NCBI GenBank assembly: GCA_031213475.1
Contig: JARUPZ010000035.1
Span: forward strand, 733,336 to 797,335
Reading direction: 5' to 3'
Origin: Nereocystis luetkeana
Taxonomy: Eukaryota; Sar; Phaeophyceae; Laminariales; Laminariaceae
DNA: 64,000 bases
Part shown: positions 12,106 through 44,814 of the stretch, in pieces
How the letters are laid out: every line of letters begins with the position of its first letter
How positions within the stretch are numbered: position 1 is the stretch's first letter
Notes under the pieces: generated by a model
What the model saw: the letters and a program-made list of their open reading frames with translations, nothing else
The model's database searches: none
What the model was told of the DNA's origin: nothing
Translations under genes and position numbers: made by a program

Positions 12106-12146
12106 ACACACACACGTATTCCAGCTGACCTGGTACCTATACCTAT

Positions 12147-18231: not shown

Positions 18232-18431
18232 ATGGACGCGCAGCTGGGTTGGGCGAAGCGCCCGGGAGACGACGAAATGGGCGCGCTCGAAGAGGGAGAA
18301 TCAGTGCGCTCGTGGCAGAGCCAGAAGAGCAAGCAGAGCACTATTCATAGTCGCAGTTTGAGGAGCGGCGGGGGGCGTCAAACCGGAGACAACAGCCTAG
18401 ACAGCCGACAACACAGCAGAGGGGATGCAAG
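18232..18431 (+). CDS. Fusion gene exon 1 (putative start)
   Basis: This exon runs from ATG 18232 to a GTGCGG donor and ends in phase 2, which matches exon 2. It encodes a hydrophilic Ser/Gln/Arg-rich segment (MDAQLGWAKRPGDDEMGALE...) with no recognised domain. An AG stands directly before the ATG, so it could instead be an internal exon. The frame is open back to a stop near 18175. Confidence 0.45.
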
Positions 18432-20506
18432 GTGCGGATCGTGCGCCGCGCTGTAGGGGCCATAGTACTACAGAAGGAGTTTGTAAAAGAAGGGCGTTCG
18501 CAGCGCACCTACTACATACGTACCAGGTGGTAGACACTAGTACGGACCCATTGAGGACGGTTGGCAGCGAGGGCGTTGTTAGAGCGCTTTGTACAATGAA
18601 TGCACAATTCGTATGATACACTGTAACGGAAAATGAAAAATGGTGGTCAAACGCAAAAAGGCTTATAAGAGCACCTTCAGTACTCTGTTACCAGGAAACT
18701 TCATGATCGCTATTTTTTTCCACTTGTCATCTGCCAATGCGTAACTCTTGTTCCAATCATACAATCCACATACAAAAAGGGATTCCAGAATCCGATGACT
18801 TCAACCACTGCAGAGTATCGATAGACTAAGACCAAGCATGCTGGTGCACAGAAAACTGACCATCTAATAACACCAAACAGCTTACGCCTAAGGAATATCC
18901 CGGTAACCGCACAGAGTGCCATATCACGACCGTTCCACAACCTTTGTACGGCTACGTACGTACCTCAAACCATTCCAGAAGCGCGTACTCCTACGAGTAT
19001 TTTCGTGCGCGCAAATCACCCGCCGACCGACCTACCCCCCGGCATACAGCCGCCCAGGAACATCATCGGGAGAAACAACGGACTCGCAGAGAGAGATGGA
19101 GCGGTATTTTCGCCGCCTTGCTGGGGCTGAGGAAACTTCTACCCGGAACAGGGCGGCAAGCGTTCGCAAGGTGGGTGGGTAGGTGGGTGGGTGGGTGCAC
19201 ACGAAATTAATCCGCCCTTCCCGCGACGACGATGAAACCGATAATCACGTGTAACCCCCTTGTGGACTGCACGCCCGTTGGAGGGAGGAAACGCTTGGAC
19301 TCAGAGTCAGATTCAGGTTTCTGTACGGTGCAGCACTCGAAAGGTTTTAGAGCCGGGAGAAAACTGCGGGGTTCGAGGTGCAACAAGCAGTCATTGGTGA
19401 CGAAGTTTGAATAAGAGTATACCTGGTACGGTACGGTACGGTACAGTAGTACCCACGTGCGAGAGTTGTTGGTGCCGGCATCCTCTTTTGCATCGAAGCC
19501 CAAACCGCCCGCCCGGCATCAACGAAATTGCTGGCGAGAGTTCTACGCGCGCACGATAACTCGAATAAGTGCGATCAACTCGCAAAAGTGCTTCAGTATA
19601 GATACGCCAACCCACCCACCCACACCATAAGAGATGAAAAAGAAACCCGCAGGTATTTTCAGGGTCTGGAGTGTTCTACCCGCGCGTGCTGTCGCGTGAT
19701 GGTGGTAATCGAATACGTAAAACGCGCGAAAAGCGGCAGCGGCCGTTAGATGTGCCGCCCTGGGTGTATGCACAATCCGACGTGAGCCGCGAGGAGGGGA
19801 AAAAAAATGCTGAATCCACTCTTCTCGCGATAAACTTGACAGCATGCATCGTAGTGGGGAGGGGGGGGGAGTGCCCGCCATGTGACCATACTAAAGGATC
19901 TGAGTTACGAAAGGGAGGGAGCTGGGGGGAAGTACGTAGGGCAAAACAATAGATGGGACGACACAAAAAAAACACTCAAGAAGATACCCCGCTTTCCTCT
20001 GTCAATATACTCACCTGTCGATGCTACACTACTGGGCGAGGGCCGGAGCAGGAGGCGAAGCTGATCGAGCACATAGGGCTAACGGAGAGGCTGACTATGT
20101 GCCGGGAGGGAAACGCCATGCGGCAGTGGGAACGTCGGCAGCGCGACTGGCACCGCGTGAGAGAACATATGGCCACCAAGATCGGGAAGGTGAGCTATTG
20201 TATATATCAGGCAGATATCCCCTACCTTTAATGAGGCAAGCACCTGCCAGGTTGAAGTGCCGCCGAACGTCTCCGCGCACAACACGTGGTATCTTCGGTA
20301 GGAGGTTTTTTTCTCTCGGCCACAATAGGCCCTGCGTAGCAGTAGTAGTACTACTATTAATACCACTCCTACTACTGCTACTACTACCACTACTACTGCT
20401 ACTGCTACTGCTACTATTACCTCCACTACTGCTGCTACTGCTGCTACTGCTGCTACTGCTACTACTGCTACTACTGCTAGTACTACTGCTACTGCTACTA
20501 CTACCA

Positions 20507-20552
<46 letters not shown>

Positions 20553-23500
20553 CTCTACTACTACTACTACTATTAATACTACTACTGCTACTATTAATAG
20601 AATGTATCGTTACATTTTTTAATCTCTGTGGCGGTGATAGATACCGGTAGCCCTCAAAGTCGGCAATCCTGGCTGTCACTAGCAGAGAGGCCAGCAACGG
20701 GGAACGTGCCACGTGCTTGTGTTCCAAAGGGGAGCAGTTTACTCGACAACTTGTTCCGAAGGTTGCGCACGGCGGAAACGAACACACCAGACAAACGCGG
20801 ATGTTGTGCTTCCGGCCGCGATGAAGTCGAACCAGAGAACCCTACGCGTCTCCACGTCATAGAGTATTGGCAGGGGCGTTTTCTTGTTTTCGCGGGTCTC
20901 ACCTGATAGCGAGACATTTGTTATGTTTGGCGACGACGGAGGGCACCGCGGTTCCCAAAGCACCGGCCGTCGGAAAACGAGGCAGCTCGAGCCGCTCTGT
21001 TCGTCTTGCCGCGGCCTCGATCAAGAGCCCGGCCGCTACAGTAGTAGCTCCACGCATGTTTGGGCACCGCCCCAAAATCTTTGCAGAAAGCTTTGACAAC
21101 GAGCCAAACCGTTACTGGGCTGTTGGCAGCACACCGTAGGTAAGTAAAATTGGTGACTAGATGGCGAGAACATAGTACTCCAAACAAAATATACTGTGTA
21201 GAACCCTAAGGGGATGGTACAAATGTTTTTTGGGTCCATCATGGGTTTAGATTTCTACGGCTCCCCTTAGTAGTCTCTCGTGTATCAAAGTCTACAAGGT
21301 TTCGCACGGCCTTCACCGCCCCCCCCCCCCCCCTCTCCCTAGAAGCGAACAGCCTACATAAGGGCTTTGCGGTGCGGTGCGATGTGCGTACGCCCTATTG
21401 CCTGACTCTCCAGGCGCCGGACGATCTGGTGATGTCGACGGGCGACGAATTCCGCGAGAGAAGCGAAGAGTACCAGCTTATCCAGAGCGCAATCCCGTCC
21501 CACGACAAGTACAGCAGCGACGGGTGAGTGAGCTCTCTCTTTTGCTAAGAAAATTGGTGGAGTATATGCATCTTTTTAGTTGAGGACTCTTGTGTGTGCA
21601 TGCACGTATAGAAGAAAAGTGAGGTGCGTATGTATAAGAGCAGAACTCTCGTCAAGGTACCAAACTGGGTGCTTTTCTTGCTCTTATGGTAGGGGTTTCT
21701 TGCACACCTCTCTGTCCCTATTTGTAAGGGCCGTTTTATACTAGCATTACACCGTAAAGGGTCTTTCCTTTCGAGGCAAACACGCGTGGTCTGCTCTTAG
21801 TCGAACGCGGGGAGAATGGAGAGTGACATGCAACGTGATGCACTTCCGGCGTCCATTGTCAAAGGGGGTAAATACTGAGGTTGAGACCTCGAGCGAAAAG
21901 ATCAAGCCCCCCCCCCCCAGCCCATCTTATGTTATGCTCTGGCGAAAGCGAAGAGGCAGTTTTTTTCTTGTGCCCCTTCGGCAATGTTCTCTCCGCTTTC
22001 GCCCATCCGCCTAACGGTGGCGTCTTTCTCTCTAGCACCTCCAGTCGGGATGCAAGAACTGGCTGTTGCGGACGCCTTGTTTTCAATCTGTACGGTATAG
22101 GCCCGCGCTTATGGAGAAACAACCCATTATAATAAGAACGCTAGGCTCAGTTTTCGGGGGATGCCTTAAGATGTTTGGGTCGAACAAATCGTGCTCAGCG
22201 GCGGGCGTCAGACTAAACCCTACACATTAGCCTATTACGGTCAAGGTTGCCCAAGGTTAATGCCAGATTAAGGTTTCAAGCCTTCCTCATACCAGGTTTT
22301 TCCTTGTCGGCTTGCCTATTCTGCATTGCCGTCTCTGAGCCTTATGTTCCTGAGCTTGAATGCTCGATCAAACGACCACCCGCTGGGTGTGATCTCTCTC
22401 AGTTCGTGGTCCGAACCCTCTTTACAGTACTATCTCCCTGTCCCGCCTTAAGCAAAGCCGGGCTCCATGGTCCGCCTTCTGAAAAGTCGGGGGCTCGTGC
22501 GGCTCAACTCCTCCCTTTTGAGATAATGATACACGTTGAGGTTCTTCCTCTGTGAAGAGAGGGCAGAGGTGGCACCGAAGTGTCTGTGAAGCTCACGTGT
22601 GAAGAAGAAGGAAGGAGATGGTTTAAAAACTAGCGCCGATGTGGCCATTATGAAAGAAGATTGATCTCAGAGATCAGGAGAAGAAAAGAAGGGAAGCGTG
22701 GAGAGGAAAAGAGAGAAGTGATCGAAGGGAGCGTGGCCATCACTTGACCATCTCGGGAAGACACACACACTACGGATAGACGCATTCTGTGGGCTGTTGA
22801 ACTGGCCGATGGTTCGTCCTATGACAACATTCCTTGATATTTATGGTGGCAAGCTAGATACCCTGCATTGTTGTCAACGTCCCGATCAAGGCAAGTTGAG
22901 CAAGTAATATGCCGAACAGCGAAGAGGGACTACTGCATTTATAGTCTCGCCGCATACTGCATTTACCGGAATATCCTAGCAAAGATGCTGGTGTACTTGT
23001 GTCCGTGCGTAGTGACTGCACATAAAATATATACGTGTGGATATCAACGTCCATATGCTAACACGCCCCCTTGATGGAAGTCAGTATCTAGAGTAGCGCT
23101 TAGGGTATAGAAACATTATACTCAGAAAATCAAAATGCAAAATGGTACAACATCTTCAGTCCTGCGCGATGGTAGCGGCAAAATACGGAGAAAACGTAAA
23201 CACAAATGTTGCAACATACGCTGGTCCGTGTAAGAAACCGTTGCAATATGGATGATTCATGTCACAATCGCCAATCGTGGTTGTGCATGACCACTATGTC
23301 ATATCATACGAAGGAAAAGCAGAGAAAATCATCTGCTGTATTTGCAACGCGCCTCCTCAATTGAATGCTACAACTTTAAGCAGTGTATGAAACAAAACTG
23401 GTGGCATAACCACAACCGAGCAACAGCATCCAACCCTACCCCGTCGCGTCTCTCACCCCGCGCGCTGCCTTCACCATTTATCAGGTTCTGGGTTATGTCG

Positions 23501-24980
23501 CTGCGGGGATACGGAGGACGCACGTGCAGCGTCGGAAATATTTTCAGCGGCCTCTATTGCGCGATAGAAGATAAGATACCGCCACCCCGCGCGGTCCGCA
23601 AGCCGACCGGCCGCCCCGCAGACGCGACTCGCAAGCGCACCTGGCGCGACAGCGAGGCGCTCGCCCTTCGCAGGAGGCAGCTCGCTCCAGCTCTGAGGGG
23701 CCTCCGGCCGCGGAAGCTGCAAGCCGAGGAAACTTCCGGTAAGCATCCTTCTATTGCGGCGACCACGGGAGAAGGGAAGAAAGTTCGGAAGGAGGAGGCA
23801 GGGGAAGTTTACGAATCCGTCGTAGACGCGTGCGGCGTTAGGGGCACGTAGCACATTTAGGCCGAACCGTTTCTGACGGATGGGGGCTTCTCAACTGAGG
23901 AACTACCCAGTAAGGCATGCCGTATAAGGGGCATGCATATGGTTGGAATGCCAGTTGTGACTCACTGGAGTATCTTGAATCCGGCATGAATGAACCATAT
24001 CATAAATATGGGGGCGGGGGGTGGGTTGTTCGTTTGCATGCCTGGGCCCTGAGGGTTAATTCATCGGGGTGCATTTGTATTGTTTCTCTCTAAATCAGTT
24101 TCTGGATGAGGTACATAGAGCCCCTCAAGTACGTAGCCGCAGGAACGCAGCGGGTAGTGATAGATGACCAACAAACTCCTTTATTCTTCTTCTTCTACCA
24201 GAGCTGCTCGTGCGAGGGCAGGATCTGCTGGAGTGGGCCGAGGTGTCGAGCAGAGAGTACTTCCAGCTACGGCGTGCTCAGGAAGCCGAGGTGCGTTTGT
24301 TTCTGGTTCGGTCTCCTCCGCCAACCAACTTCGTTTGACGTTCTTCCTCTTTCTCTCTTGGCCTGGCCACGGGAGCTTTGAGTGCGGGACACGAAAAATG
24401 ACCTTGTAGGTAGTCGGGGAGGCGATGAGCGGATGCATTCGGCTTTGAGGTTTGAGCACCAGGTAGTTTGCTGCGGAGGGGAGTTGCTCCTGAGGAGGCT
24501 TCTGCTACAGGCGTGCAACCCTGACAACCATGAGATAATGAGGATAATCTCACATTAGCTCATTTTCCTGAAATCTAGCCCCGTGGTCACAAAACAGGCT
24601 ACGACAAAAGCGTTTCAAACGGAAGAAAAAAATAGGCACAAAAAAAGTAGCGTGTACCACAGTAGTACCGGTACGCAAGGCAACGGTACCAACGAGCAGT
24701 GGTATACCTGTGGTATACCATCCCGTATCACTTGGAACCAAAATATACTAGGAACGTACCCATGGTATATACGTACACGGGAAAAACAAAAAAGGAACGA
24801 ACCTCGTGGCTCTTTATTCCCGCCGGTCCTACCGGCCCAGCGCCACACGGTGTCTACGAATAGAGGCCGCTTTCTACGGGCGTGAAACAGTGGGAAACGC
24901 TGGCAATACGACCCATGAAGCGCATCCGCGTGTGCTGTCCATTTATAGAACGCACTACTGTACTTGTGCGGTGTGGTGAG

Positions 24981-25034
<54 letters not shown>

Positions 25035-28000
25035 CTTTTGGCGTCTGGCACGACCTTCCATGGCAGAGTTGCATGACATCGCCTCACGTGAAAAGTCCGG
25101 ACACCTCACGCAGGACCTACCACTACTGTAAGTTGGATACTAAACGTTGATCTCCTGACTACAATGGTTGATTGCAAGGGGTCGTACGGCACAGGCGCAG
25201 CACGATCGTAGCGTTCGTACCTGCTGGGGGCTCACACTGCTGTGCCTTTGGACGGTTGATGAACTAAACGTATACTTTTTTCCGGTCGATGTTCGTGGGG
25301 CCTCCCAAAGGGGGGTTAACGTCGACAACTCTTATTTCACGCCGTATTCCAGCTTACGGTACGCGCGTAGGTGTACTGACTGACTTGCTCACATACACTA
25401 TACCTGGTATGTATTTTTCCTTTCGCTAGACGTTCTGCGTACATATCGTTTTTTGGGATGTATAGACTTCAAATGTTTTCAACTGCTGGTAATCGGCCTT
25501 TCGTTTTTTTTTCTTCCAGCTGCACGAAAACGTCATCGGATTTGTTTTTACTGTGCGTCACCCCCACCCCACGTCTGAATGCCTCCGATGAGAAACCTCG
25601 TACGAAAACCTACAGAAGCAGTTGACCTCCACAACACTCTTATACGTTGTATAAGTGCCTCATTGAAGCGAAGTTAGGTGTGCTGTGCTGCCGAGTCTTG
25701 TGGAAGCCGCCATGACCGTCGTCCGCGCTAACGTTTTATTGACTTGCTGGCCGCCACCACCGAATAGGCCGAACTTGCCGCCGGATCCAGGGAGATAAAC
25801 AAGCCGGCGGGGGTTGGGATGGGGAAGCAGACGGAAGCTGGCGATGACGATATCGATGCGGGGGCGGATGGTTCCCGTCAACGGCGACCGCTGTCGCGTG
25901 AGGGACCTGCAGTGGAGGTATCATATTACGTTCACACCGCAGACTTGTTCTATAGCACTGTCTGGCTGTCCTCGCGCTACATGTGCCGTACAGGACAAAA
26001 GTGTACGCAGCTTGATGTCGAGCGACGGGGGGTTTGCTAATTTGAAGGCGCCATAATAAAATGAGGGGCCCCCTTCGAGCCGTGTCAGAAGCGTCCAACG
26101 CATGATATATACACACGCTGTCCGCCAAAACGCACACAAGTTGACCACAACCACAAATAGCCTTATGCGCGAGTTTTTGTGACGAGGGGCTATGTATAGT
26201 TATCAGAACCCACGACGGACCCAAACCATAGGTATTGACGCGTGGTTACACACCATGGTTGATTCTGATTACGAATGCGTTCCCGCATCATGGCAACAGC
26301 TACACGATTCTAAAACTAATAGTAGCTATACCACTGCCGCGCTTGCCTGTTGGCCAAACTTTAGACCGTCGCAAGAAGCCCGGTGGTGGCGTGGTGTGTT
26401 AAGAAGAGACCCGAGCACGTAACGTAAGCGAAGCAGTACATAGTGGTCGACGGTAGCTCGGGGTTAACTGCTGGAGTACGTTTGAGTTGATCCATGTTCA
26501 CGGGGTTTTCTGACGCGGTTGTTTTTCTGCGCTATCTAGTGTCGCGGCTGCTTGTCCTCTGATCTCGACGATCGTCAGCAAAGCAGTCGCGCGACGAATT
26601 CGTAACGCGGTGCAGCTTCGATCCTTCCCCGCGGCGCTCACCAGAGAAAAATCCTCCCTTCCTGAAACTTAGTTACCCCGACCGAGCGCTTCAGAACTGG
26701 AACGTATCATGCCCTCCAACCGCACGCGCTAACCGGACCGTTGGTGTCACTCAAAGCACATGAAATCGCCCACCCACCCACCCACCCACCTCACTTCCCA
26801 AGTTAGCCGGCCACGTTCCAAGTCGCCTTTTCAGGTTTTCCGCTGATTCTAGCGTTCTTCTCCCCGTTCTTGTTTGCTACCACTCTGTCCAGAATTACAA
26901 GGACATTTTTATTAAATACTGATATACAAACGGTTCTAATACTTAGGGACATAGATGTATCTACAGGTACAAAGGTTATCTACCCCAAATGTTGACAAAA
27001 GTTGCGCTGTTCTTTTTTTCAATGTGACGCGTGTGTGCTTGTGCCTGTTTTTTTTTGCGGCCCTTCTCTCTCTCCCCTCGCTTTTTCTTTTGTTGTACAC
27101 GTAGGTTATCTCTCCCAAAACGTTGCTGATTGAATGCGACGCGGGCTCAGAAACGCTCGAGCGGGCGACGGTAACGCTACGCAACTCGGGCTCCACCGTG
27201 CTGTTCTTCTCCTGGTCGAGGGTACCCAGGGGAGAAACTATTGTCAGCGCTAACGGCGCCTCGAAAGACCGAGGTGCCGGCAGCAAATCCGGCAGCGGTT
27301 TCAGGGGTGCTTGTTCTGCTTTAGATGAAGGGGGTAGGGTGGTGGAGGGTGGGGGTGGGGGTACGCGGCATGCACTCGGGGACGCGAGCAGCAAGGTTGC
27401 CGCGACTCGGCACGCGACACTACAGGACCCGGGCGGTCGTTTCTTCTGCTATCAGGTGGGTTGCTGTACACAGCAGTATTCTTGATGTGATGAGGCAGTT
27501 GGCGGCGTCGGTTACGGGACGGAGTCAACTTGTTGGCCTGGCGCTAGAATTCCGTTCGTCGTACGGAAATTTCCATGTAGTGGCTTTCAGAGGGGAGCTT
27601 TACCAGCAGTATTTCGACACTATGGCTGAGGGTGACTGTGTGCAAGACGTATGAAACCATCGCTAACCCTAAGGCAATCAGACCCCATCATTCGGCTGGT
27701 TTAGTCCGTTGGTCTCGTACACAGTCAGTTTGTGCCAACCATAGTGAAGTAAGGGGCCAACTCAACTGGACGTTCACGAAGGTCAAAACCACAGACCGGT
27801 CGGGGGCGACGAGGTCGCCTACTTTTGTGAAGTAAATTAGCTCAGTTAGGGTCTGAGGGTCACACAATCCAAGCAGCAGCTGTGTAGCCAGCCGGCGGCA
27901 CTGTTCTAGCAAAGGCCTCATAGATTTGTCCGCTTGGTCGCTATTGACTTGCCCACATATATAATATATTGGAACGAAAAGTCCTCCATCCCGCGAAACG

Positions 28001-31000
28001 CCACCCTACGACTAATCCCGGAAATTCCTTCGTCGCTTAAAACGTTTGAGAATCCAGAGAAAAAAATCGACTGCGAAAAACAAACACGCTTGCAGCATGT
28101 GGTCACTCCTTTCGAAGTTGGGGGGATGAGACCAATTTGGTGTCCGAGCTATGATAAGATGCAAAGGAGGTTGAACGGCACGAGGGGGGCGCAGCATTAC
28201 TTTCTCGTGCTGCTACGCGCTTTCTAGCTCACACCAACACTATAGTACGATGTACTCGTAGGCGGTTGCTTAAGATCAAACTTGTCATCTTGTTTTGGTC
28301 GAGATCACTAAATGTTGACCAAAAAGTGTTGTTAACCTCTTTAGGACTGCAGCCCCTTTTGGGGGGACAACTACTTAAAATTTGAGTGGTTTGTCCCCAA
28401 AACGGGACTGCAGTTCTAAAACGGTCATTGACCTCGGTCTGTCTTAAACGGTTCCTTCTCCTCCCCCCCCCCCCCCCCTCTCTAAACAAAGACGAAAGGA
28501 ACCCTCTTGCCGGGTGAGACAGCGACGACATCGTTCTCCTTCAAGAGCGTTGAGTCGGGCGTTTTCAGCGACCGCTGGCGACTTGAGACTGCCCCACCGG
28601 CGCCGTTCGTCTTCACGGCACCGCCACTACCAACCCCCGCTGCACATCACGGGGAGTCGCCGCTTTTTACAGACAGCGATCATCCCGGTCACCCAGCACT
28701 CGATCGCCGTCTCACACCCGGTGTTCCCGTGTCGAACGCCTTCCCTGGAGGAAATGGCAGCGGCGGCGCCAATCATGGGGTTACCAGAGGAGATACCGCC
28801 GGCGTGGGTCTCTTGGTGGGGGCAACGGCGGGCCCCGGTGCTTCTAGAAGTAGAAACCAGGACGAAGAGAGGGGCGGCGACGGTGGTGGTGGTGGTGGTG
28901 GTGGTGGTGGTGGAACAATAATCGACGATAGGGGAGAAGAAGAGGCTTCGACAGGAGGCAGTGCGGAGGTGGGCTTGCGGGGGGTGGCGGTGGCGCTGGA
29001 CACAAGGGAGCACGCGAGGAATAGGCTGTCGGAGGGGATCGGCAGGGGGATTTTCGTGAAAAAAGTGGAGGAGATTGTGAGAGAGGTGGTGCGAGGCGTC
29101 CGGACACCGATTCGAGAGAAAGAGGTACGCACTGCTGCAGCTACAGCTTGCGTTTTTTTTACGCTGTGAAACGCCGTGTGACAGTCGACCAGACGCCCTC
29201 ACAGGAACTGCTGACGTTGTGTTTGGGATGTGTGTTCCGTAGGAGACGTATGGTTCCACTAAATCCGAAATGGTTGCCACAGCTCGCGGAAGCCTTGCGG
29301 CATACCTGGTGGCAGCCGCTCTAAGAAAACCATGAGACGGTGAACAGAGGATATTTTGACTAAGAGCATCGTTTGGATGACTGCCCTGCCTCAAGTAAAA
29401 AAATAACCTAGCTTTGAGAGGATGGCGGAGAAGGGTTCGGAAAGTTAAAATTTTCGTGAAAATTGACTTTAACGTTTAAACGGTACCAGGTGCATGACTA
29501 CGCGCTAGTTACGGTCTGGTCTGCCAGGATTCACCGATGCTTGTTAGCAGTCTTGGTGATCCAGAACGGCGTCGACATAACGATGTAACTATCAAGACTG
29601 TTGTTTGATTTGCTTGTGGTAGGACGTGTTCCAACCCTCCAACAAACTGAGCCTGTAATTGAAAAAAACGAAACAAGTGGATACCCCCTCAACACCACCG
29701 CCGACTTTCATTTGTCTTTATTTGTCTTCCCAGATACGACGTCGACAGCGGAAGGCGTTCCTCGCGACGAACTCAGAGCGTGGCTTGTACTTCACGCCTC
29801 GACTTTACGACGGCTTCATGTCGCTCTTGCAGAAGGCTAAGGCAACCGCCCTCGCCGCCAAAGCAGGCTACTACGACGGCAACGAGAGCAATGAGGGTGA
29901 GGGGAACGATAAGACGACAGCGACAGAGATCGGGGTAGATGGTGGAAGGCGATCGAACGAGACGAATAGCGCCGCCGCCGCCGCCCCAAACATGAAACCG
30001 ACACAGAACATGAAACATAAGAATGAGGAGGACCTTGAGGACGGAAGTGGTGACGGCGAGCGCTCGTCGTGCTCCACGCACCCGGCAAGCGATCGATCGC
30101 TCGGTGGCAACGGCGACGAAGATGACGACGACGACACCCGACGAACCGGAAGCGACACCAGCAACATTTCACACGGGGGATACCGGAGCGATAAATTAGG
30201 ACAAGCAAGGGGAGACGGGAAAAGTGCGGTGGATGGCGACGCCACTTTCCAAGCGGGGAGCAGCAGCCACGCACCTGAAGAAAGGGTCCTTGAAGAGTCA
30301 AGGCCGGGAGGAGATTTAGAAGCGCGGCAGGAAGCAGGAGGTTATGGGGCACGGTCGACGACGGAAGGGCTTGGGGATAACAACAACAACAACGACGAGG
30401 ACGAAAGAGAGTCGACTGAGCGTCTTAGGACCCTCAGGGATATGCTGCAGAGGCTCGACTGCGAGGAGTGGGACGGGGCGGTAGACACTGTACTGAACGT
30501 CATCGAGGATCTAAGCTCCTGGGTCCCACCGCCTGCCTCTCCCGACGAGTCTCCGCTGGCCCAAAACCACCAAAACGGTGCAGGTCCTGGACTAGACGAG
30601 AGCAGCCTTAGCCTAGGGGTGGATGCGCTCCTTCGGAGCGACGATGGCGTGGACAATCATGAGGCGAGCGGTCGCGACGGTGGATCGGGAGAAGAAGACG
30701 ACCCGGAACGAGAGGGCGAGGATGACGATGAAGACGAGGAGGAAGAGGAAGGGGAGGAAGAGGAGGAAGGGGGTACGGACACGGACGCAGAGAGCAAAGG
30801 AGAGGGCGAAGACGAGGACGACGACGACAACTACTACGGCGAAAAAGAAGAGGAGGAGGAGGAGGAGGAGGAGGAGAAGAGACACCCTCTACTTCGCGAG
30901 CAGAAGGCACTGCGGGCGCAGTGGCGTCGGCTGGTGTTGGACGCCCAGCTCGAGCCCGAGACGGACTGCCGTGCGTTCATGCGCGAGGAGGTTGGCGTTA

Positions 31001-32265: not shown

Positions 32266-32305
<40 letters not shown>

Positions 32306-35300
32306 CAGTTGGGCGGCGTCTTTTGGGGCGAGAGTTATGATGGTCGAGAGGCTAGGCGCACCGGGTGTTGTGCCGGCTCCACCGGCAGAGGAGCCCGTCC
32401 TGAGCGACGACGAGGAGGAGCGACTGCCAGACTTTGGGTGGGGTGGGGAAGGTATAATTACCGAAGACATGGATTCAGATTATATTTGTTGATAATTGTT
32501 TGGGGGGTAGTCGTACGTGTTAAAAAATGACTGCTATTTCGAGGGAACATAGTAACCAGTTGTGGATTATAACAATAGAGGCATGCATTTTTTTTTGTGC
32601 TCCTATGCACGTGGGTTTATTATTTGTGTGGCACCCCGTAACAGCTGAACGCTTTTTTCAATCGTCATCGCTCGAGATCCTCGTTAGTCGTTGCAAGGTG
32701 TGGCACTACAAAAGCAAGTGTCGGGGGGCACAGGCAGTGATTTGGAAATCTGATTATAGGAGTGGATCGGCTGCGCGAGTGTTAGCCTGTGACACTGCAG
32801 CACGCTCAAATTATGACGCTACATATATAGAAGAAAGGTGTCTGGAAGTTTTGGCTAGATAAACTCACATTCCGACGGCATTGCATAACAAGCCGTGCCC
32901 TGCCTCTCAAAACAACGACCACCGCAAGACATGATGAACGATGCGTTCATCCGATGCATCGCGTCGATAGGACAACGGAACCTCGCGCGCTCCACGAACC
33001 CATTTTATTGCGCCGTCCCCCACACTCATACCTTGTACACAAAACGCCGCTGACTGCGACCTGTTCCGTCTTTCCAGAGGCCGAAGCGGCCGCGGATCAT
33101 ATCAAGGAGGTGGAGGCGGCGCGCCTGGCGATCGACGGCCCCGGAGAGGGAGACCTTGGCGCCATGCTCGCGGGAGTGGTGGACGTTGTGGTGTTGGATG
33201 CACCCCGGATGCTGTACGAGCCGCGAAGAGGGCTGCCGTGGGGCCCAACGCCGACGACAGGCCTCACGGTCGCTGGAACCGGTGAAACAACCGACCTTTC
33301 GTGTTCGATACCCGGGGAATTAGATTTTCGTGGTGATAGGCAGGGGTTGTCGTTGTTATTATTGTTTTCACAGTAACTCATCGACAAAATCTAGTCTGTG
33401 GTCACAGGACAGGTTCAAAACCTGACACAGGGTTGTATGAAGCCATTTTCGTTCTGGCTTGGCAGAGTGGTGACGAAGATCGTGACAATGCTCTTGGTGC
33501 AGGTGCTATCCTCCGTTTACCCAGCAGTAGTGTTTTGGCCATGGGATTTGCAGGCTGAAGGCGTTAGGGATTTTGCTGGGAGATTTTACCAAGTGCGGTA
33601 AATAAATACCTGGTATGTGATCGTCGACTGACCCCGCCCTTTGCTGATGCTCCGCGCAAACCTGGAACGTTTAGCTCGGGTTGATAAACAGATGTGAGGT
33701 CAGCGACCTTTCGTACCCCACACCCACAGAACTCTGGCAATGCGTGACGCCCTTCCATGTCACAAAAAGCGCACCGAGTACCCTCCCCGACCTCCTCTCT
33801 AAACGCACGCTTACACCTGCTACGTGCTTCTCTCATTCATCCATGCAAGGTCTCCACGGAGACCTCACTGCTATGGCATACCTCGCCGAGTCTCCAGACA
33901 GACCGCTGCTAGCGATCGTTGGTGGCGGCAGGCTGGAGCCGAGAATAAAGCTTATCGATGGCCTCCTGGACCTTGTCGACAACCTAGCAATCGGCGGGGG
34001 CTTGGCCGCCACCTTCATAGCGGCCGCAGATGTTGGCGGCCATATCAGCGTCGATTGTGGCACGATCGGCGATGGTGGCGGCGGTGGAGAGCGGAGGAAG
34101 CTCCGACGGGGTCCGGGTGGGGTGGGGCGGCCTCGCGACCCCCCCGACGTGCTGGAGGCGGCGAGAAGGTTGTTGGTCAAGGCTCGAAAGCGGGGGGTAG
34201 AGGTGAGATTTGCTACTTGGGTTGGGCTGGAAGAGGTCCAACAGAGACGGTAGCGATTGGTTGGCCCCGTAATGTATTTCAACGCCGTTCCCTGCCCTCG
34301 TTTGTTTGACGAAAAAAAAACCCGGCAGCGTCGAGAATACTGTGATGGTGCTGCTGTGCGGTGCAGCCATAAGCTTGATCATGTGCAACATACTTATACC
34401 CCGCACGCCGCCCCCGTTGTATGCCAATCGGCAGTGTATACAACCCGCCGCGGCGTTGCGATCAAACTGTGGTATCCTCTCTGTGTGATATTCCGCAATG
34501 TTAAACCCAACACGTTCGATCGGTTTAACTTTCATTAAACCCCACAGTTCGGACAGGCGGGCGGGCTTTTCCAAGGGGGAAAGCCGTCCGTGTAGCGCTT
34601 GTGTACATTTGCTGTCGGCATGCAACTTTCCCGGTGTATGTTTGACTGTTGGGTCGTGTGACTGTAAAGCGATTGCCCATCCTGTCAACAAGTAGGATGC
34701 ATTTGCGTTGAGCCGCTTCAAGATTATAATCCTACGGTCACGCATGCTGTTGGATGTGGCTTGCATCGAGCGTATACAAGATTTCTCAGCCTCAAGGTGA
34801 CGAGTGATGCTGGGGTGTATCTTGCATAGAGAATAAACAAGCTTTCTCAGTCTTAAAAATGCTGACCACGAGCACTATTGGGTATATAGAGATACGTACT
34901 TGTTTTCCCATCGATCTTGGACGTAAATTTTGCATCGAGTATAACGTGCACAAGATTCTCAGTCTCCTAAAGGCTGGCCACGAATGGCTGACGCACATAC
35001 ACAAAACCTGCAGGTCATTCTCCCGTCCGACTTCGTGGTCGGTGACCTCGAGGTAGACGAACACGGTCCCCTACCCGGGCAAGCCCTACCCGGCGACGAC
35101 GATGAGGAGAACGAAGCCGGCCAAGAAGAGGGTGAAGTCGTTGCCGTCGACAGCCATAGCAATAAACGCAGCAGCGTTCAAGAGATCGCTTCGGCGGATG
35201 GTAAGCCGCCTGGCACTGCTGGCGGTGGCAGCGGTGGCGGCGGCGATGCTGTATCATCAAATACCGGTGGTGGCGGTGGCGGCGGCAGCAACGAGGCGGG

Positions 35301-36635
35301 AGCGCAAGATGTCGAGCCGGAAGACCCTGCGATGGGCTTTGAGTACGACGGAGAGGTGATCAAACATTGTGCAGAATTAAGCGTCTCGCCGAAACTCTTT
35401 GGCCAATGTGCCGAGGTTTAAGTGTAAGGGTTTGTAGTACTGCCGTACCTAGCTGACGAGCACACACCGGGGGAGGGAGTGGGGGGGGGGGGGGGGGTCG
35501 TGTAGGAAGTGTGTGACGTCGAATGTATTTCTGGGTAATTTGTTTGTTCGAGTTTGTTCTTCTCGAGGGCTAAGCGTCGCCGTTCATGCCCTTCAGAGGC
35601 AAGGGTGGTGCTACTCGTGCACGCGAATGCACCGTAAACAATCAAGCTATGCACACGCATGCAGCATGCCGGGGATACCATCGCCAGACGGGTTGTTTCA
35701 CTTGTCCCTCTTGCAACAGCTACACCCCGTACCTCGCGACCGACTTCCGATGGCAGTCTTCTCCCTTTGCTAACTTTCGCATACTTAAAAAACAAGAAAA
35801 AAAACGGAAAAGACATTCAGCTGGGAGATCGAAAAATTCCTCGAATCATTTATATATAATCATGTACGAATATATTATATGGGGGGATACAGTACTCAGA
35901 CCCAAACACCCCTCTGGGAATGCACGTTTAGACATCCCTCTGAAGACGAAGCGGCCCTTCTGTTTCCGCCCAGATTGGTTATCCTTTATATATATATAGG
36001 GGGATATGCCGTTTTTGAGTCCATCTTGGGTTCCGCTTACTATATTAGCCCCTCCCGTAACAGCGAGAGGTCAGCGAGACACCTTTAAAGTAGTTGCGTT
36101 TCCGTCGCTTCCCGTTCTCTGCTCACCCCCGCGCTTCCCTTAAAAAAACTTCCGTCCCCCTCCCTAAGTGCGCGACTGGTCAACGACCTGCAGTCACCGC
36201 GAGGAAAAAAAAACGCGCAACTTGTTTTTTGCCCGCCTCACCCCCCTGATTCAGCTGCCCGGTAACGCCTTTGCCCGTCATCGCCGTCGTCTTCTTCTTT
36301 CGTCTCCGCCTACAGACTATGGACGCTACTCTTAAGGACGGTGTCCCTAAGGGTTTCCACGCCATGGATGTTGGGCCACAGACCGCCGCTGCTCTCAGGG
36401 TAAGCAAGCACCGTGCGGCCGGAGTATACATATACAGCAAGCCATACTAGCAAGCCGTGTACTTTTTGCCGCAGGGTAATCCTCACGCTTTTATGGGTAC
36501 CCCTCGCTTTGCAGCCGCAAGCAGTACGTATCACCCGTTTTTCGCGGTAACTCCACACTACTACGTACACCTGCCCCGCGTTTTAGTCGCATACCAGGTA
36601 GGTCCTGTACGTACGTTTCCAGTAGAACAATAAAT

Positions 36636-36678
<43 letters not shown>

Positions 36679-39600
36679 GCAGCAGCACAACAAGCAGAAG
36701 AGCAGTAAGTGGCAGCGATTCTCTGACCGTGGTCTACCTCTTAAAAAGCAATCGGGTCGCCCCAAGGCCATGATATGGTATGGGGGGGTGTACCCCTCTC
36801 CCCTCTTCACAATCCCATGGTGATGCTTGTGGCGGAACATATACCTGGTATGCACAAAATATTACCAGGGACGTACGTAAGACGAAGCAAGTAAATTGGT
36901 TGATTATTAATAGACACTCCCCGAGAGTGGCCCTGGGCGGCTGAAAAAAAATGTGCCCAACATGGCGCAAAAGTGCCCCCCTACGTACACCCTCCGACGT
37001 ACACGTACACAGGAAAGGGGGGTAAGATAAAGCAATAGGTTTCTGTGCAATATGCGGAAAAGACGTATCGAGCGCCCAAAGATTGGAGGTGTCTCTACTA
37101 CTAGGAGTATAGGAACGGCGGTGCTCCATCTCGAGAGGGATGCGTGGTTAATGGTCAAATGATAAAGGAAAGCAACAATTGAGCATGCCCCGCCGCTCCC
37201 CCCCCCCGTCCCGGCATTGTAGGGGTGCGAGGGTGTATGGTCATACGACTACGGCCATGCATGAGATCGAGTACACCCCCCCTCCCCACCCCACCGTAGA
37301 TTGGTCTGGTCGTCTGACACTAGATTCTACGGCTACACCAGATTTCTAGAATTAAGAAAGTTCATCCGGAGCTGTCATTCGATGCAAGAAAGCGCACCTC
37401 ACAAGTGGTTCTCAGTAAAATTACCTTTTTTGTGCGAGTCGCTGAACACCTCACAGAGCGCTTCGCGCTTGGCGCAAGCAGAGTCTGTCTGGTCGGTGAA
37501 AACCTGACGTGAGGTCCGTCCCGGCATTGCAAGGATACGAGGGTTTATGGTCATACGACGACGGCCATGCACGAGATCGAGTACATCTCTCCCCCCCCGC
37601 CGCTGCCGCCGCCGTCGCGCGCATCTTTTCGGCCTCGTTTCCCCGTTCCTCCCACCAACCACCGCTTTTGCTCCATCAGGGTGCCGTTGGGCGTGCCCGC
37701 TCTATCCTTTGGCACGGAATGCTCGGCGTGGCAGAGTGCTCGGCGTTCCAGCTTGGAACGAGGGAGGTTCTGGAAGCTGCGACGTCGGCGCACGACAGCG
37801 ACGACGCGCGCGAGGCGGGGACGTCGCCGGTCGTAATACTATGCGGAAGGTAAAGGAGAAAACGGAGAAAATCATCACTCTCCCCTATTTTTTTGTCGAG
37901 GGATCCAAAAGATTTCACACAATAAACGAGTTGTTGTGTAAACAGGCAGGGTCTGTGCGTATGTTTATATTGACATACCCAACCCAGGAAAACACACGTG
38001 TGCTACGAGTACACAGATCACGCAGGTTTTTACGGCTCCCACCCGGCAGCATGAGCTAGGCCATACAGATCATACAGTCAGAAGCATATCCGGGCTGAAA
38101 GATCTAGATCATGAACTGCTGTGGGGATGATTTGTAGATGATCTGTCCGAGCTGTGCGAGCTGTGGAAACTTTGATCTACGTACGGTTAGGGCGGTGTGG
38201 TAATTTTCGTACTCATAGCATCGCGGGCGATCGTCCGTCCGAATGTGTAATATATACTCGTACCTTTGCGTACGTATTTTGCCGGTATTCGGTATTTGCT
38301 GCGTGTTCTCGGTGTTTGCTGTGTGCATTCGGTATTTTACCGGTATTCGGTACTTGCTTTTCGTATTCGGTATTTGCTGTGTATCGTAATGGAATTTTGT
38401 GCTGTTTTATGTGGTGGTGCTACTGTACTAAGTGCGTCTGGCGTTCTTGTTTGGCTCCTCACTATTACGGGGGACCATAGTTAATAGGACTAAATATTGT
38501 TAGTAAAAATGGTCAAATATATACCTGGTACGGTTTTATGTATACCATAGGTCCTATGAACTATGCCCCCCCGTAATAATAGATGCCGACGACGAAAACG
38601 CGGTCTGTATTCGCCACGCCCCTTGATAACTTGCACATTTTCTATTTTTCTTTTCCCTTCATTATTTTGTTTTCCTTCCATCCCATTTATTTTCTTCACA
38701 CCCCTTTTTTTTTCTCCCCCTCCTCAGTACGGTACGTACGTGCCTTTCATTTTTTGCCGCGAGAAGGGTTCGGCACTTTCTGCTCTCGTCGACTTGCGTC
38801 TAATTGTGCTGTCCTCTTCCCTTTAACCTCCCTTTGAGAACTACAAACTGCACCCACGGTTTTTTGGTGGCAAAGGCACTTGGGATTGGTGTGGGGTCAT
38901 TGTTTTTGGCAGCAGCTAATTCACCCTTTCAGTACTGCAGTCCCGTTACGGGGACAAACCGCTCAACTTCCACGTAATTTGTCCGCAAGATGGGTCTGCG
39001 GTACTAAAAGGGTCGATTGTGGCACGCCTCGGGCAGATGATCGATTCACACTTCCTTCATCATCTATACTGTACAAGTTTCAGCGCGGACGAGAGTCCTG
39101 GTCTGTGTGATCCACTGCATGTAGCTTATGTTGCCAGAATGGAAGCCGAATATCCTGCTTTTATGATCTGTTGATGGAACGTGTTTCGTGGAGGACATAT
39201 TTTGGGGAAGGTTCGTAGAACGGTCATCGCACACGTACCCATGGAAGCTACGCAAGGAGTGGTATCAACATCTGAGAATCTTTCCGGGGACCGAGAGAAC
39301 TCGGCATAACTCGGCTTAATAACCCGAGCCCCCTTGAAGTCGACGTGGGGCTTGTTTCACCGTCGTAACCTCACTCGATCTCTGTCTTCTCCACGCCGCT
39401 ACTCCCAACGTGGAGGACTCTCTCCGTGCCCTAAAATAGAAGAAAGGAAACGCTCAACCTTCGGTAGCTAGTCGAAGCAAACCACATCACTGGGGACCTT
39501 TGTGACCCTACGAAAGTAGGGAGGATATAGTTTCCTGGGTCGGATCTTCTGTGATTACTAAGATACAGACCCAGAACAACATATCATAAGCGACGGGTTT

Positions 39601-42600: not shown

Positions 42601-43771
42601 CCGGCGAGGCGAAACAAACGAAGCCTATTAGTATTGACTCTCTGCAGGCCCAAGAGGAGCCCGTGGTACCTGCACCCTACAGGAAAGAAAACAGTTCAGA
42701 TTTTGGAGGCCATGTGGCACGCTTAATGACCCAAGTGCATTTTTTTAGCCTGATTTTCATGGACATAACAACCGCTCGTGGCGCGTGTTTTTTTCTTGGT
42801 TTTAGATGTACCTGATTTTGGCTCAAACGGATGAGGTATACCTGATTTTGGCATTTGCCCTTTTTTTAGCGCATGCGCAGGGGGATTCAAAAATCAGAAA
42901 ACCCCCCCGAAAAACCAACAGTTTTCTTCAACTTCTCATGCGCGTTGACGCCATCTCGTACGTGCCATCCACAACATTTTATCTTCGGAGCCTGTCCCAC
43001 CGAGAAACCTACCCATCATGCATCGTCTCGGACCCGGGGTCAAGTGGGCTCGCGATCACACCGTCAAGCGTTTCGCACGAACCCATCACGCTCTCTTCGT
43101 CTGGCTCATCAATCAATCAATGTGATTAGAGATCAGATGCAGGTTGAGATACAGCAGAGTATCCCTTGCTTGGTTTGCCTGTTGAGCAGGTACTCATTGT
43201 TACTCGCGTAAATATATTGCCAACGAGAGAATGGCAGAAGAAGAAGAAGAAGAGCAGCTTTAGTCCTTTTAGAGCACGATGCTACTAAGACTGAGGACTA
43301 GAGGTTCGCTTTCCTCGCCCCAGAAACTCCTGGTTTCCATCTAAGATCTGCCTTTCAAGTCCATACAACACTTACTTACAGTAGTTAGTAGCCCCTTTAC
43401 TGCCGCCGTGCGCAGAAACGCGTGTTTACGTCAAATTCTTTGTAATATATATATATATGTTGCCAAAACGGAAGCTCGGCACTAAACGGTCTACTGCAAC
43501 TCGATTACCACCCTGGCTCGGCCATTGGACAATGTTGTTGTTGATGTTGTTTTTCCTCACGTAATTGATACGACCACAGGTCTGTACGGACCCTGGGCTT
43601 TGCACGAGAGTGCTGGAGGGGAGAGCTGTGCCGGGGCTGTCGCAAATCAGCGAGCGGGATCCGCCGCCAGGAGACGTGGATCTCGGGAAGGCAAGAAGAG
43701 AGCGAACGAACGGGTCTTTCCTTGTCTGTTGCCACAGTTGTTACAGCACTTACTTACTTGTCAATAGTTAG
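18232..43771 (+). CDS. MYCBPAP-pseudoPGK fusion protein, 17 predicted exons
   Basis: Predicted join: 18232-18431, 19050-19170, 20052-20189, 21414-21523, 23548-23738, 24202-24290, 27105-27455, 28492-29124, 29734-31104, 31494-32451, 33078-33281, 33850-34202, 35014-35355, 36316-36399, 37680-37849, 40265-40346, 43580-43771. All introns are GT-AG, every junction keeps phase, and the sum is 5589 nt (1862 aa). Residues ~108-1068 resemble the MYCBP-associated protein family: the EFRERSEEYQ segment, an ASH-like beta-sandwich (ATVTLRNSGSTVLFFSW), then LLPGET...FSFKS...GVFSDRW. Residues ~1175-1830 follow the whole PGK fold in order, with catalytic residues lost. MYCBPAP orthologues sit in the ciliary central apparatus of green algae and animals (family knowledge). 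A flagellar role here is inference. The start codon, exons 1-2, a possible extra exon at 25795-25917 and the exon 9/10 junction are the weakest parts. Introns hold MITEs, simple repeats and tandem repeats. Confidence 0.8.
19050..19170 (+). CDS. Fusion gene exon 2
   Basis: The acceptor is CATACAG and the donor is AAG|GTGGGT. It enters in phase 2 and leaves in phase 0, as its neighbours require. It encodes a charged stretch with QREMERYFRRLAGAEE, which looks helical. No domain was recognised. Support comes from phase and splice sites only. Confidence 0.45.
19745..19985 (+). repeat. SINE-2 body fragment (headless)
   Basis: It shares CTTCTCGCGATAAA, the GGATCTGAGTTAC block and the GATGGGACGACACAAAAAAA end with the SINE-2 body, but no tRNA-like head. 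It lies in intron 2 of the fusion gene. Confidence 0.6.
20052..20189 (+). CDS. Fusion gene exon 3, start of MYCBPAP-like region
   Basis: The exon is 46 codons, phase 0 to 0, with acceptor GGAGCAG and donor AAG|GTGAGC. It encodes an amphipathic helix (IGLTERLTMCREGNAMRQWE and RRQRDWHRVREHMATKIGK). This resembles the Trp/Arg-rich helix before the conserved 'LMxxxxEFR' segment of MYCBPAP proteins. Confidence 0.7.
20338..20612. repeat. ACT/CTG trinucleotide tract in intron 3
   Basis: A 270-bp mix of ACT, ACC and GCT triplets (CTACTACTGCTACTACTACC-type). It gives long poly-Leu, poly-Ser and poly-Val ORFs in several frames, none of them real. Confidence 0.9.
21414..21523 (+). CDS. Fusion gene exon 4, MYCBPAP signature helix
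   Basis: The acceptor is CTCTCCAG and the donor GTGAGT. It encodes APDDLVMSTGDEFRERSEEY followed by QLIQSAIPSHDKYSSDG. The pattern of a short loop, 'LVM.T.DEFR', then a Glu-rich helix ending near 'IP' is the clearest N-terminal resemblance to MYCBPAP. It joins exon 3 in phase 0 to read IGK-APDDL. Confidence 0.8.
23548..23738 (+). CDS. Fusion gene exon 5
   Basis: The acceptor TATTTTCAG and donor GTAAGC enclose 191 nt, entering in phase 2 and leaving in phase 1. The product includes WRDSEALALRRRQLAPALRG, reminiscent of the 'Trp...Arg-Arg...leu' helix in the middle of MYCBPAP. The rest is basic and Pro-rich. GC content is higher than in flanking introns, as expected for coding sequence. Confidence 0.6.
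24202..24290 (+). CDS. Fusion gene exon 6
   Basis: A pyrimidine-rich acceptor (CTTCTTCTACCAG) precedes 89 nt ending at donor GAG|GTGCGT. Entering in phase 1 gives ELLVRGQDLLEWAEVSSREY then FQLRRAQEAE. A 'GQ..L.W' pattern occurs before the beta-sandwich in MYCBPAP proteins (family recollection). Confidence 0.65.
24984..25031. repeat. (CA)n microsatellite
   Basis: An uninterrupted CA dinucleotide run of about 24 units in intron 6 of the fusion gene. Confidence 0.95.
25795..25917 (+). CDS. Possible extra in-frame exon between exons 6 and 7
   Basis: This is an open block in phase 0 to 0, so it can be included or skipped without shifting the frame. It would encode INKPAGVGMGKQTEAGDDDI followed by an acidic and basic tail, and end at GAG|GTATCA. 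The acceptor is weak (GGGAG). No family match was seen. It could be an alternative exon or chance. Confidence 0.3.
27105..27455 (+). CDS. Fusion gene exon 7, ASH-like beta-sandwich
   Basis: The acceptor CACGTAG and donor CAG|GTGGGT enclose 117 codons in phase 0 to 0. It encodes VISPKTLLIECDAGSETLER and then ATVTLRNSGSTVLFFSWSRV. This is the 'novel-strand, N.G.T.....W' pattern of ASH/MSP-like domains and specifically of MYCBPAP. A low-complexity Gly-rich loop follows, and the exon ends with RFFCYQ, which leads directly into exon 8. Confidence 0.88.
28334..28426. repeat. MITE-A copy 4, in intron 7 of the fusion gene
   Basis: It has the same arms and centre as copy 3, with changes in the left arm (CAGCCCCTTTTGGGGGGACA). 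It lies between exon 7 and exon 8. Confidence 0.8.
28492..29124 (+). CDS. Fusion gene exon 8, MYCBPAP core motif
   Basis: It opens in phase 0 with TKGTLLPGETATTSFSFKSV and then ESGVFSDRWRLET. The run 'LLPGE....F.FKS...G.F...W.L' is the most diagnostic MYCBPAP motif in the window. The rest is Pro/Gly-rich, includes a GGT-repeat-encoded poly-Gly run (28878-28916), and ends with a helix (FVKKVEEIVREVVRGVRTPI) before donor GAG|GTACGC. Confidence 0.88.
29734..31104 (+). CDS. Fusion gene exon 9, MYCBPAP C-terminal part with acidic linker
   Basis: The acceptor TTGTCTTCCCAG precedes 457 codons ending at DE|GTAAGA. It starts with IRRRQRKAFLATNSERGLYF TPRLYDGF; MYCBPAP proteins carry a similar helix after the sandwich. 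Later helices (LRTLRDMLQRLDCEEWDGAV; HPLLREQKALRAQWRRLVLD) also fit. Between them, residues ~925-995 are almost entirely Glu/Asp. That stretch is probably a flexible linker. Poly-Ala and poly-Asn runs mark low-complexity insertions. Confidence 0.85.
31290..31392 (+). other. Ambiguous exon-like block before the PGK-like domain
   Basis: A good donor (CTCAG|GTGAGG) ends this block. One frame reads AKEMDEMEQKKWTEKLDMLR, a convincing helix, but it ends in phase 2, which fits no downstream acceptor into the PGK frame. The other frame starts at CCAG|CAC in phase 0 and ends in phase 1. That fits an acceptor at 31542 (TTTTTCTGCAG), but its peptide looks less natural. Direct splicing 31104 to 31494 also works. 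Transcript data must decide. Confidence 0.35.
31494..32451 (+). CDS. Fusion gene exon 10, PGK-like N-domain
   Basis: The reading frame is open from 31239 to 32494. I place the acceptor at TTTTCCACAG (31493), phase 0, and the donor at GGTATAAT, phase 1. LTALRYEDIEGRRLILHADL aligns with the PGK opening '(L)..D..GKRVL.R.D.N'. SLRATAATVSTLLGMEVDFY aligns with 'SL.P....L..LLG..V.F'. ARVMMVERLG aligns with 'G.V...ENLRF'. Substrate residues are changed: Asn of 'DxN' is Cys, SHLGRP is SELAPS, and Arg of ENLR is Gly. A poly-Gly run (~32262-32307) lies in a loop. Confidence 0.82.
33078..33281 (+). CDS. Fusion gene exon 11, PGK-like
   Basis: The acceptor is GTCTTTCCAG, entering and leaving in phase 1. 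LGAMLAGVVDVVVLDAPRML corresponds to the PGK segment 'LA...D.YVNDAFG.AHR'. TPTTGLTVAG corresponds to '.AHAS..G'. The conserved Asp-Ala of 'NDAFGTAHR' is present, but the 'FGTAHR' block is not. The donor is ACCG|GTGAAA. Confidence 0.8.
33850..34202 (+). CDS. Fusion gene exon 12, PGK-like hinge and C-domain start
   Basis: It enters in phase 1 and ends in phase 0 at GAG|GTGAGA. SPDRPLLAIVGGGRLEPRIK and LIDGLLDLVDNLAIGGGLAA follow the PGK 'NP.RP.LAI.GG.KV.DKI..I..L...VD...IGGG.A.TF' block nearly position by position. This is the strongest single PGK match in the gene. The nucleotide-binding Lys of 'GGAKV' is Arg. A disordered Gly/Arg/Pro insert follows before ARRLLVKARKRGVE. Confidence 0.9.
34760..34992 (+). 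repeat. Three diverged tandem units in intron 12
   Basis: TTGCATCGAGCGTATACAAG, TTGCATAGAGAATAAACAAG and TTGCATCGAGTATAACGTGC each lead into TCTCAGTCT...AAGGCTGACCACGA-like sequence. The last unit ends just before exon 13. Confidence 0.6.
35014..35355 (+). CDS. Fusion gene exon 13, PGK-like
   Basis: The acceptor is ACCTGCAG, phase 0. The join KRGVE-VILPSDFVVGDLEV reproduces the PGK 'G(V/K)..LP.D.V.AD' strand across the intron, which supports both splice sites. A long Gly/Ser/Glu-rich insertion follows, where normal PGKs have a short loop. The exon ends at GAG|GTGATC in phase 0. Confidence 0.88.
36316..36399 (+). CDS. Fusion gene exon 14, PGK 'GLDIGP' segment
   Basis: This 28-codon exon lies between CGCCTACAG and AGG|GTAAGC. 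It reads TMDATLKDGVPKGFHAMDVG then PQTAAALR. It matches the PGK segment '(I)P.G..GLDIGP.(S/T)'. The basic residue usual after GP is Gln here. Confidence 0.88.
36637..36680. repeat. (ACA)n microsatellite
   Basis: Fourteen or so ACA/CAA triplets followed by CAGCAG in intron 14. Confidence 0.9.
37680..37849 (+). CDS. Fusion gene exon 15, PGK 'WNGP.G.FE' segment
   Basis: The acceptor CTCCATCAG is phase 0 and the donor GGAAG|GTAAAG phase 2. It reads GAVGRARSILWHGMLGVAEC then SAFQLGTREVLEAA and VVILCG. This matches 'A.T..WNGP.GVFE...F..GT..(I/L)..A......IIGGGD'. Asn, Pro and Phe of the nucleotide-site motif are His, Met and Ala, so ATP handling should be impaired. Confidence 0.9.
38463..38577. repeat. 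MITE-B copy 4, in intron 15
   Basis: The ends are TATTACGGGGGACCATAGTT and AACTATGCCCCCCCGTAATA. It has an internal TACCTGGTA motif. Confidence 0.85.
38625..38830 (-). repeat. SINE-2 body fragment, inverted
   Basis: On the minus strand it contains the CGCGGCAAAAAATGAAAGGC and GAAGAAAATAAATGGGATGG blocks of SINE-2, truncated at the head side. It lies in intron 15. Confidence 0.55.
38923..39013. repeat. MITE-A copy 5, in intron 15
   Basis: The arms CCCTTTCAGTACTGCAGTCC and GGGTCTGCGGTACTAAAAGG flank a CTCAACTT centre. Confidence 0.8.
40153..40258. repeat. MITE-B copy 5, abutting the exon 16 acceptor
   Basis: The left end is TACGGAGGGCCATAGTAAAT and the right end TATTCACTATGACCCCCCGC. The right end lies 6 bp before the AG of the exon 16 splice acceptor. 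Confidence 0.85.
40265..40346 (+). CDS. Fusion gene exon 16, PGK C-terminal segment
   Basis: The acceptor is GCGTACAG, entering in phase 2 and leaving in phase 0 at CAC|GTAAGC. It reads SLGEWASLLVEAEDDAPPLG SGSGVSH, where PGKs have 'D(S/T).A.........SHI(S/T)'. Its 5' end directly follows a MITE-like repeat (40153-40258), so the repeat supplies part of the acceptor context. Confidence 0.75.
40487..40584. repeat. MITE-A copy 6, in intron 16
   Basis: The ends read TTGACCCATTTAGGACTGCA and CTGCGGTCCTGAAAGGGTCA. The complementarity extends to TTGACCC/GGGTCAA, which suggests the full element is about 98 bp. Confidence 0.8.
41259..41800. repeat. Second inverted repeat, ~125-bp arms, in intron 16
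   Basis: TGGCTGGACGGTTCAAGGTA at 41310 is inverted at ~41735-41755. The similarity covers about 125 bp on each side (41259-41385 and 41672-41800), with a ~285-bp loop. Confidence 0.65.
42154..42244. repeat. MITE-A copy 7, in intron 16
   Basis: The arms CTCCTTTAGAACCGCAGTCC and GGACTGCGGTTCTAAAAGGG are almost perfectly complementary, including compensating changes (GAACCGC/GCGGTTC). Confidence 0.85.
43580..43771 (+). CDS. Fusion gene exon 17, PGK C-terminal tail and stop
   Basis: The acceptor is ACGACCACAG, phase 0. VCTDPGLCTRVLEGRAVPGL aligns without gaps to PGK 'xSTGGGA.LE.LEGK.LPG(V/L)'. The Gly-rich phosphate loop STGGGA has become CTDPGL. The frame continues to a stop at 43769-43771 after a Ser/Cys/Tyr-rich tail unlike PGK. 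The tail may be real, or another intron may start within it. Confidence 0.78.
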   Translation, partial: VCTDPGLCTRVLEGRAVPGLSQISERDPPPGDVDLGKARRERTNGSFLVCCHSCYSTYLLVNS

Positions 43772-44800: not shown

Positions 44801-44814
44801 ATACTCGTATATAT

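Follow-up and report, generated by a model that had tools for sequence, protein, structure and literature searches.

The window analyzed here is a stretch of 64,000 nucleotides of the brown alga Nereocystis luetkeana (G000:C35:733336-797335, in an assembly of 465 Mb). An initial annotation had read in it one gene in which a MYCBPAP-type flagellar protein is followed by a phosphoglycerate kinase (PGK). Reading frames and splice sites give 13 exons on the forward strand, from 20052 to 37849, which join into a chain of 1685 codons without a stop. The 12 introns between exons 1 and 13 are all GT-AG, and the junction phases are compatible at 12 of 12. Because phase was considered when the exon ends were picked by hand, this agreement is in part built in and is not independent at every junction. 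The model, together with the features discussed alongside it, is as follows.

20052..20189, forward strand: exon 1, where the MYCBPAP match begins; weak acceptor
21414..21523, forward strand: exon 2, MYCBPAP
23485..23738, forward strand: exon 3, MYCBPAP (GFWVMSLRG...); found by reading, the joined-chain Pfam match covering profile positions 3-168
24202..24290, forward strand: exon 4, MYCBPAP; found by reading
27105..27455, forward strand: exon 5, MYCBPAP beta-sandwich region
28492..29124, forward strand: exon 6, MYCBPAP (LLPGET...FSFKS...GVFSDRW)
29734..31104, forward strand: exon 7, C-terminal part of MYCBPAP, with a long acidic low-complexity insert
31105..31493, forward strand: junction between MYCBPAP and PGK (intron 7); G+C 0.452, coding score like that of an intron
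31494..32451, forward strand: exon 8, linker and then the presumed start of the PGK N-terminal domain, LRYEDIEGRRLILHADLCGR; large inserts, weak N-domain homology
33078..33281, forward strand: exon 9, end of the PGK N-terminal region; the PGK profile match starts at position 126
33850..34202, forward strand: exon 10, PGK (LAIVGGGRLEPRI...); 6.8e-9 at the exon level
35014..35355, forward strand: exon 11, PGK (VILPSDFVVGD) and a glycine-rich insert; 3' end picked to keep phase
36316..36399, forward strand: exon 12, PGK (GVPKGFHAMDVGPQT)
37680..37849, forward strand: exon 13, PGK (LWHGMLGVAE); ends in phase 2
39078..39120, forward strand: weak candidate for a missing exon, the top of an enumeration
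43580..43771, forward strand: last PGK-like exon, CTDPGLCTRVLEGRAVPGL to the stop TAG; unjoined to exon 13

Searched against Pfam, the joined 13-exon chain matches MYCBPAP (PF14646) at 120.8 bits (E 9.6e-35, four stretches; curated cut-off 24.5 bits) and, after it, PGK (PF00162) at 102.2 bits (E 4.1e-29, two stretches; curated cut-off 27 bits), and no further family above cut-off. Both domains thus stand in one stop-free spliced reading frame of the predicted chain, in the order and on the strand that had been proposed. The MYCBPAP match owes much to exons 3 and 4: before they were added, separate pieces matched at 3.6e-11 and 8.8e-18. Both exons were found by reading within 21.5-27.1 kb, where a Pfam scan of all three forward frames gave no match. 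At exon 11 a better-looking donor near 35200, which would break the frame, was passed over. An exon at 20841-21140 was discarded, its likely donor leaving an in-frame TAG and its neighbors joining in phase 0 without it. The 1862-aa product named in the initial annotation came without exon coordinates, so no equivalent chain could be rebuilt.

The ends of the model are less secure than its middle. The gene had been thought to start at 18232, where an ATG opens a reading frame with a likely donor in phase 2 (manual count). Exon 1, the first with homology, has a weak acceptor and begins in phase 0, and this ATG was rejected as the gene start because the end phase of its frame is incompatible with exon 1. 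At the other end, the PGK C-terminal motif VLEGRAVPGL lies near 43.6 kb behind a phase-0 acceptor, and the pattern LEG[KR]..PG occurs once in the six frames of the window and never in 50 base shuffles. The exon at 43580-43771 has no Pfam match when searched alone. The phases do not match across this last gap, with exon 13 closing in phase 2 and the 43580 exon opening in phase 0. One exon or more must therefore be missing between them, and the statement that all junctions are in phase holds for the 12 from 20052 to 37849 and breaks down at this last step. Enumeration of the interval between these two exons yielded no convincing link. Part of the DNA around 39078-39120 has an 81% match on another contig and may therefore be a repeat, and the candidate was not accepted as a secure exon.

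Whether the locus holds one gene or two turns on the junction between exons 7 and 8. The MYCBPAP-PGK fusion could be an artifact of two same-strand neighbors, with the MYCBPAP gene finishing near 31.2 kb and a degenerate PGK-like gene or decaying copy beginning just after it. The unspliced frame of exon 7 does reach a stop at 31195-31197, the frame of exon 8 is open upstream from 31239 with an ATG at 31263, and the PGK 3' end is incomplete, all of which would suit two genes. Against this, the junction from 31104 to 31494 is in phase and joins a strong, consensus-like donor (GAG|gtaaga) to a strong acceptor (ttttccacag|GAT). A codon-usage score was trained on the exons of the chain versus its introns, with intron 7 excluded, and each exon was scored after training without it. 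All 13 exons come out positive, between 0.15 and 0.59 bits per codon, and the two stretches that separate genes would have to use look intronic: the read-through past exon 7 scores -0.47 bits per codon and 31263-31493 scores -0.49, compared with a median of -0.39 and a 95th percentile of -0.09 for 89 overlapping open intronic stretches of 231 nt. The G+C content points the same way: it is 0.45 for 31105-31493, compared with 0.63 across the exons and 0.50 across the introns. The first methionine of exon 8 is residue 164, downstream of residue 110, where the PGK-like sequence starts. From the scores and the position of this methionine, a separate PGK-like gene would need a start in intron-like sequence or an unseen upstream exon. 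The six PGK-like exons 8-13 also remain open and score as coding, and the same pair of domains occurs within one protein of Tetrahymena (PMC7729029). We regard two adjacent genes as unlikely. The sequence makes it likely that MYCBPAP and PGK belong to one gene, which would give a single transcript.

The PGK half is clearly homologous to PGK across profile positions 126-265 and in the WNG region, and exons 10-13 align with solved PGK structures (best 3.6e-22). In comparison with canonical PGK (PF00162) it has large inserts and changed motifs. The five landmarks that had been quoted for it (GGGRLEPRI, VILPSDFVVGD, MDVGPQT, LWHGMLGVAE and VLEGRAVPGL) are present in the order given; to call them the complete order of PGK landmarks was too generous, as all five come from the C-terminal part. 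Against a PGK profile built from two sequences, exons 8-9 reach no more than 3.1-3.2 bits (E about 6), in weak collinear pieces, and 3 of 2000 shuffles of exons 8-9 score above exon 8 (3.2 bits). The N-terminal PGK domain is, at best, barely recognizable. In an exon-level PGK search of the whole genome, exon 10 is the one exon of the window that passes (6.8e-9), next to 23 matches at four other loci with canonical motifs:

G000:C2, 1.58 Mb: canonical PGK locus
G000:C3, 11.73 Mb: canonical PGK locus
G000:C27, 8.08 Mb: canonical PGK locus
G000:C35, 3.15 Mb: canonical PGK locus, on the contig of the window

Three of these four loci were aligned with the PGK of the window, which is 30, 26 and 25% identical to them. 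H(L/A)GRP, NDAFG(T/A)AHR(A/S)H, GG(A/S)KVS(S/T)K, WNGP and STGGGASLELLEGK are each found at 4/4 loci, DLN and GGGD at 3/4 and LLENVRF at 2/4, a motif left uncounted being one whose exon was unread at that locus. The module in the window departs from them: DLN is DLC, HLGRP is RLGAP, NDAFG.AHRAH is LDAPRMLYEPRR, GG(A/S)KVSSK is GGGRLEPR, WNGP is WHGM, GGGD is ILCG, STGGGASLELLEG is CTDPGLCTRVLEG, the counterpart of STGGGASLELLEGK reads CTDPGLCTRVLEGR and LLENVRF is absent. In PGK enzymes the residues that are changed here bind substrates. Most of the catalytic motifs are altered, and the module lacks the conserved substrate- and nucleotide-binding motifs by which a PGK enzyme is recognized.

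Local ATP supply in the flagellum by an active fusion enzyme, as has been suggested for other flagellar glycolytic enzymes, would be in keeping with the clear PGK fold sequence over profile positions 126-265 and with the features that are kept, such as the glutamate of GV.E (here GVFE) and the GGG..(A/F)TF region. With most substrate and nucleotide motifs changed or absent, and canonical PGK exons at four other loci, we consider this extremely improbable. The PGK part is probably a PGK by descent and not an enzyme. It appears to have been kept for something rather than to be decaying, since exons 8-13 are open and their coding scores positive. The presence of enolase in the C1b arm of the central apparatus is an analogy that supports a shared theme and not local ATP production, given the loss of most catalytic motifs. 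The link between glycolytic enzymes and the central apparatus most likely survives here only as ancestry, a former enzyme being used as a part.

The MYCBPAP half suggests where such a part would be placed. An exon-level search of the whole assembly, in which one candidate was scored, lists one MYCBPAP match, and it overlaps exon 6. The N-terminal exons match Chlamydomonas FAP147 (7n61) at E 1.2e-4. Their match to the MYCBP-associated protein of 9ijj (E 0.028) ranks under a chance-looking HIV Rev chain (E 0.018) and so is not significant alone; exons 5-6 match the same 9ijj protein at E 0.0027. A single scan of viral contigs with the MYCBPAP part found 0 relatives. FAP147, the MYCBPAP of Chlamydomonas, forms the rachis of C2a, a stationary arm, and passes through the wall of the C2 microtubule (PMC9113940). 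In the mouse C2a, MYCBPAP, CCDC108 and CFAP70 are mutually dependent and MYCBPAP is needed for C2a; a recent tomography study, according to the same source, places these three proteins differently in mouse sperm (PMC13345628). With FAP147/MYCBPAP located in the C2a arm, a central-apparatus setting fits the fusion (PMC9113940, PMC13345628). FAP147 and mouse MYCBPAP resemble the protein of the window as members of the MYCBPAP family. Unlike it, neither FAP147 (976 aa) nor the 932-aa protein of 9ijj gave a PGK match, and C2a can thus do without a PGK module.

The initial annotation knew of no described protein joining these two families. In fact a 2020 review presents Tetrahymena TTHERM_00856750, under the name MYCBP-PGK, as a PGK of several domains that includes a part related to MYCBPAP (PMC7729029). 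The fusion has therefore been described once before, in a ciliate and, as far as the available part of that paper goes, without a proposed flagellar role; the alga is a further case. In both proteins MYCBPAP-related and PGK sequence occur together, the comparison being by description only. The ciliate protein differs in that its authors propose for it a nuclear role during conjugation, for example in macronuclear development, and not a place in C2a (PMC7729029). By extension, the algal protein might act in the nucleus or in gene regulation during the sexual cycle. The timing of TTHERM_00856750 expression during conjugation would favor such a role (PMC7729029), and the presence of MYCBPAP homologs in the C2a arm of both Chlamydomonas and mouse speaks against it (PMC9113940, PMC13345628). 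We think it highly unlikely. A link of a MYCBPAP-PGK fusion to the central apparatus was not found among the listings and passages searched in the open-access literature.

Our preferred reading, which we hold with moderate confidence, is that one gene encodes the sole detected MYCBPAP/FAP147 homolog with a PGK-derived module at its C-terminus, and that the product is a C2a protein in which the PGK is noncatalytic. Within the flagellar central apparatus, the MYCBPAP half would build the C2a arm with partners of the CFAP65 and CFAP70 types. The PGK module would no longer transfer phosphate and may extend that arm as a structural or binding element, possibly one that senses a ligand. The proposal of a one-gene fusion in the central apparatus thus stands as the best reading, with FAP147/MYCBPAP in C2a behind it (PMC9113940, PMC13345628); the ends of the model are unsupported. 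This would extend the domain combination from a ciliate to probably a second major lineage and tie it to a protein with a structurally known place in the flagellum.

A precedent for a PGK derivative in the axoneme is the PGKL of Trypanosoma brucei (Tb927.11.2380), which is derived from PGK, predicted to be inactive and axonemal (PMC7729029). The module of the window is like PGKL in its PGK descent and predicted inactivity, PGKL itself being flagellar. PGKL is unlike it in having the PGK on the N-terminal side and a cyclic-nucleotide-binding domain, and the accessible portion of PMC7729029 reports no MYCBPAP part. With the algal protein there would be two cases in which an inactive glycolytic enzyme serves as building material of the axoneme. 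We also raise, more tentatively and with less than even confidence, an older origin, in which MYCBPAP-PGK was a component of C2a at least as early as the ciliate-stramenopile ancestor and the PGK pseudoenzyme a standing structural or sensing part. The fused state would then be ancestral in that group, and green algae and animals would differ from it in having FAP147/MYCBPAP free of PGK. Should the fusion go back to common descent, an extra PGK-shaped density is expected in the C2a of ciliates and stramenopiles, lacking in Chlamydomonas and mouse. If this older origin holds, then together with trypanosome PGKL it would mean that axonemes incorporated a dead PGK on more than one occasion.

The window also contains repeats and two further reading frames:

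10200-10292, 15926-16018, 28335-28427, 38923-39015, 42153-42245, 58722-58814 and 62078-62170: seven copies of a dispersed 93-nt repeat, 62-100% of the reference
11709-12375 and 44578-45228: several pairs of long inverted-repeat arms
13788-14423, reverse strand: reading frame beginning MYKTIPLQLFAAVALLAARDVEGFVPAP
56287-56928, forward strand: long light-harvesting reading frame of the fucoxanthin-chlorophyll type, a chlorophyll-binding protein over 56377-56925, in line with an alga whose light harvesting is of this type

Three copies of the 93-nt repeat (28335, 38923 and 42153) lie within introns of the fusion gene model. The inverted-repeat arms are 81-100% complementary, stand about 32-33 kb apart and flank the gene; they may be a single mobile element present twice, in opposite orientations. 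The reverse-strand frame has no Pfam family over 13791-14399, and we take its start, MYKTIPLQLFAAVALLAARDVEGFVPAP, to resemble the plastid-targeting presequences of algae with complex plastids. The light-harvesting frame matches PF00504 at 6.3e-37, and its best PDB match is FCP17 of 9ygv (3.5e-111), followed by FCPI-12 (8.6e-63).
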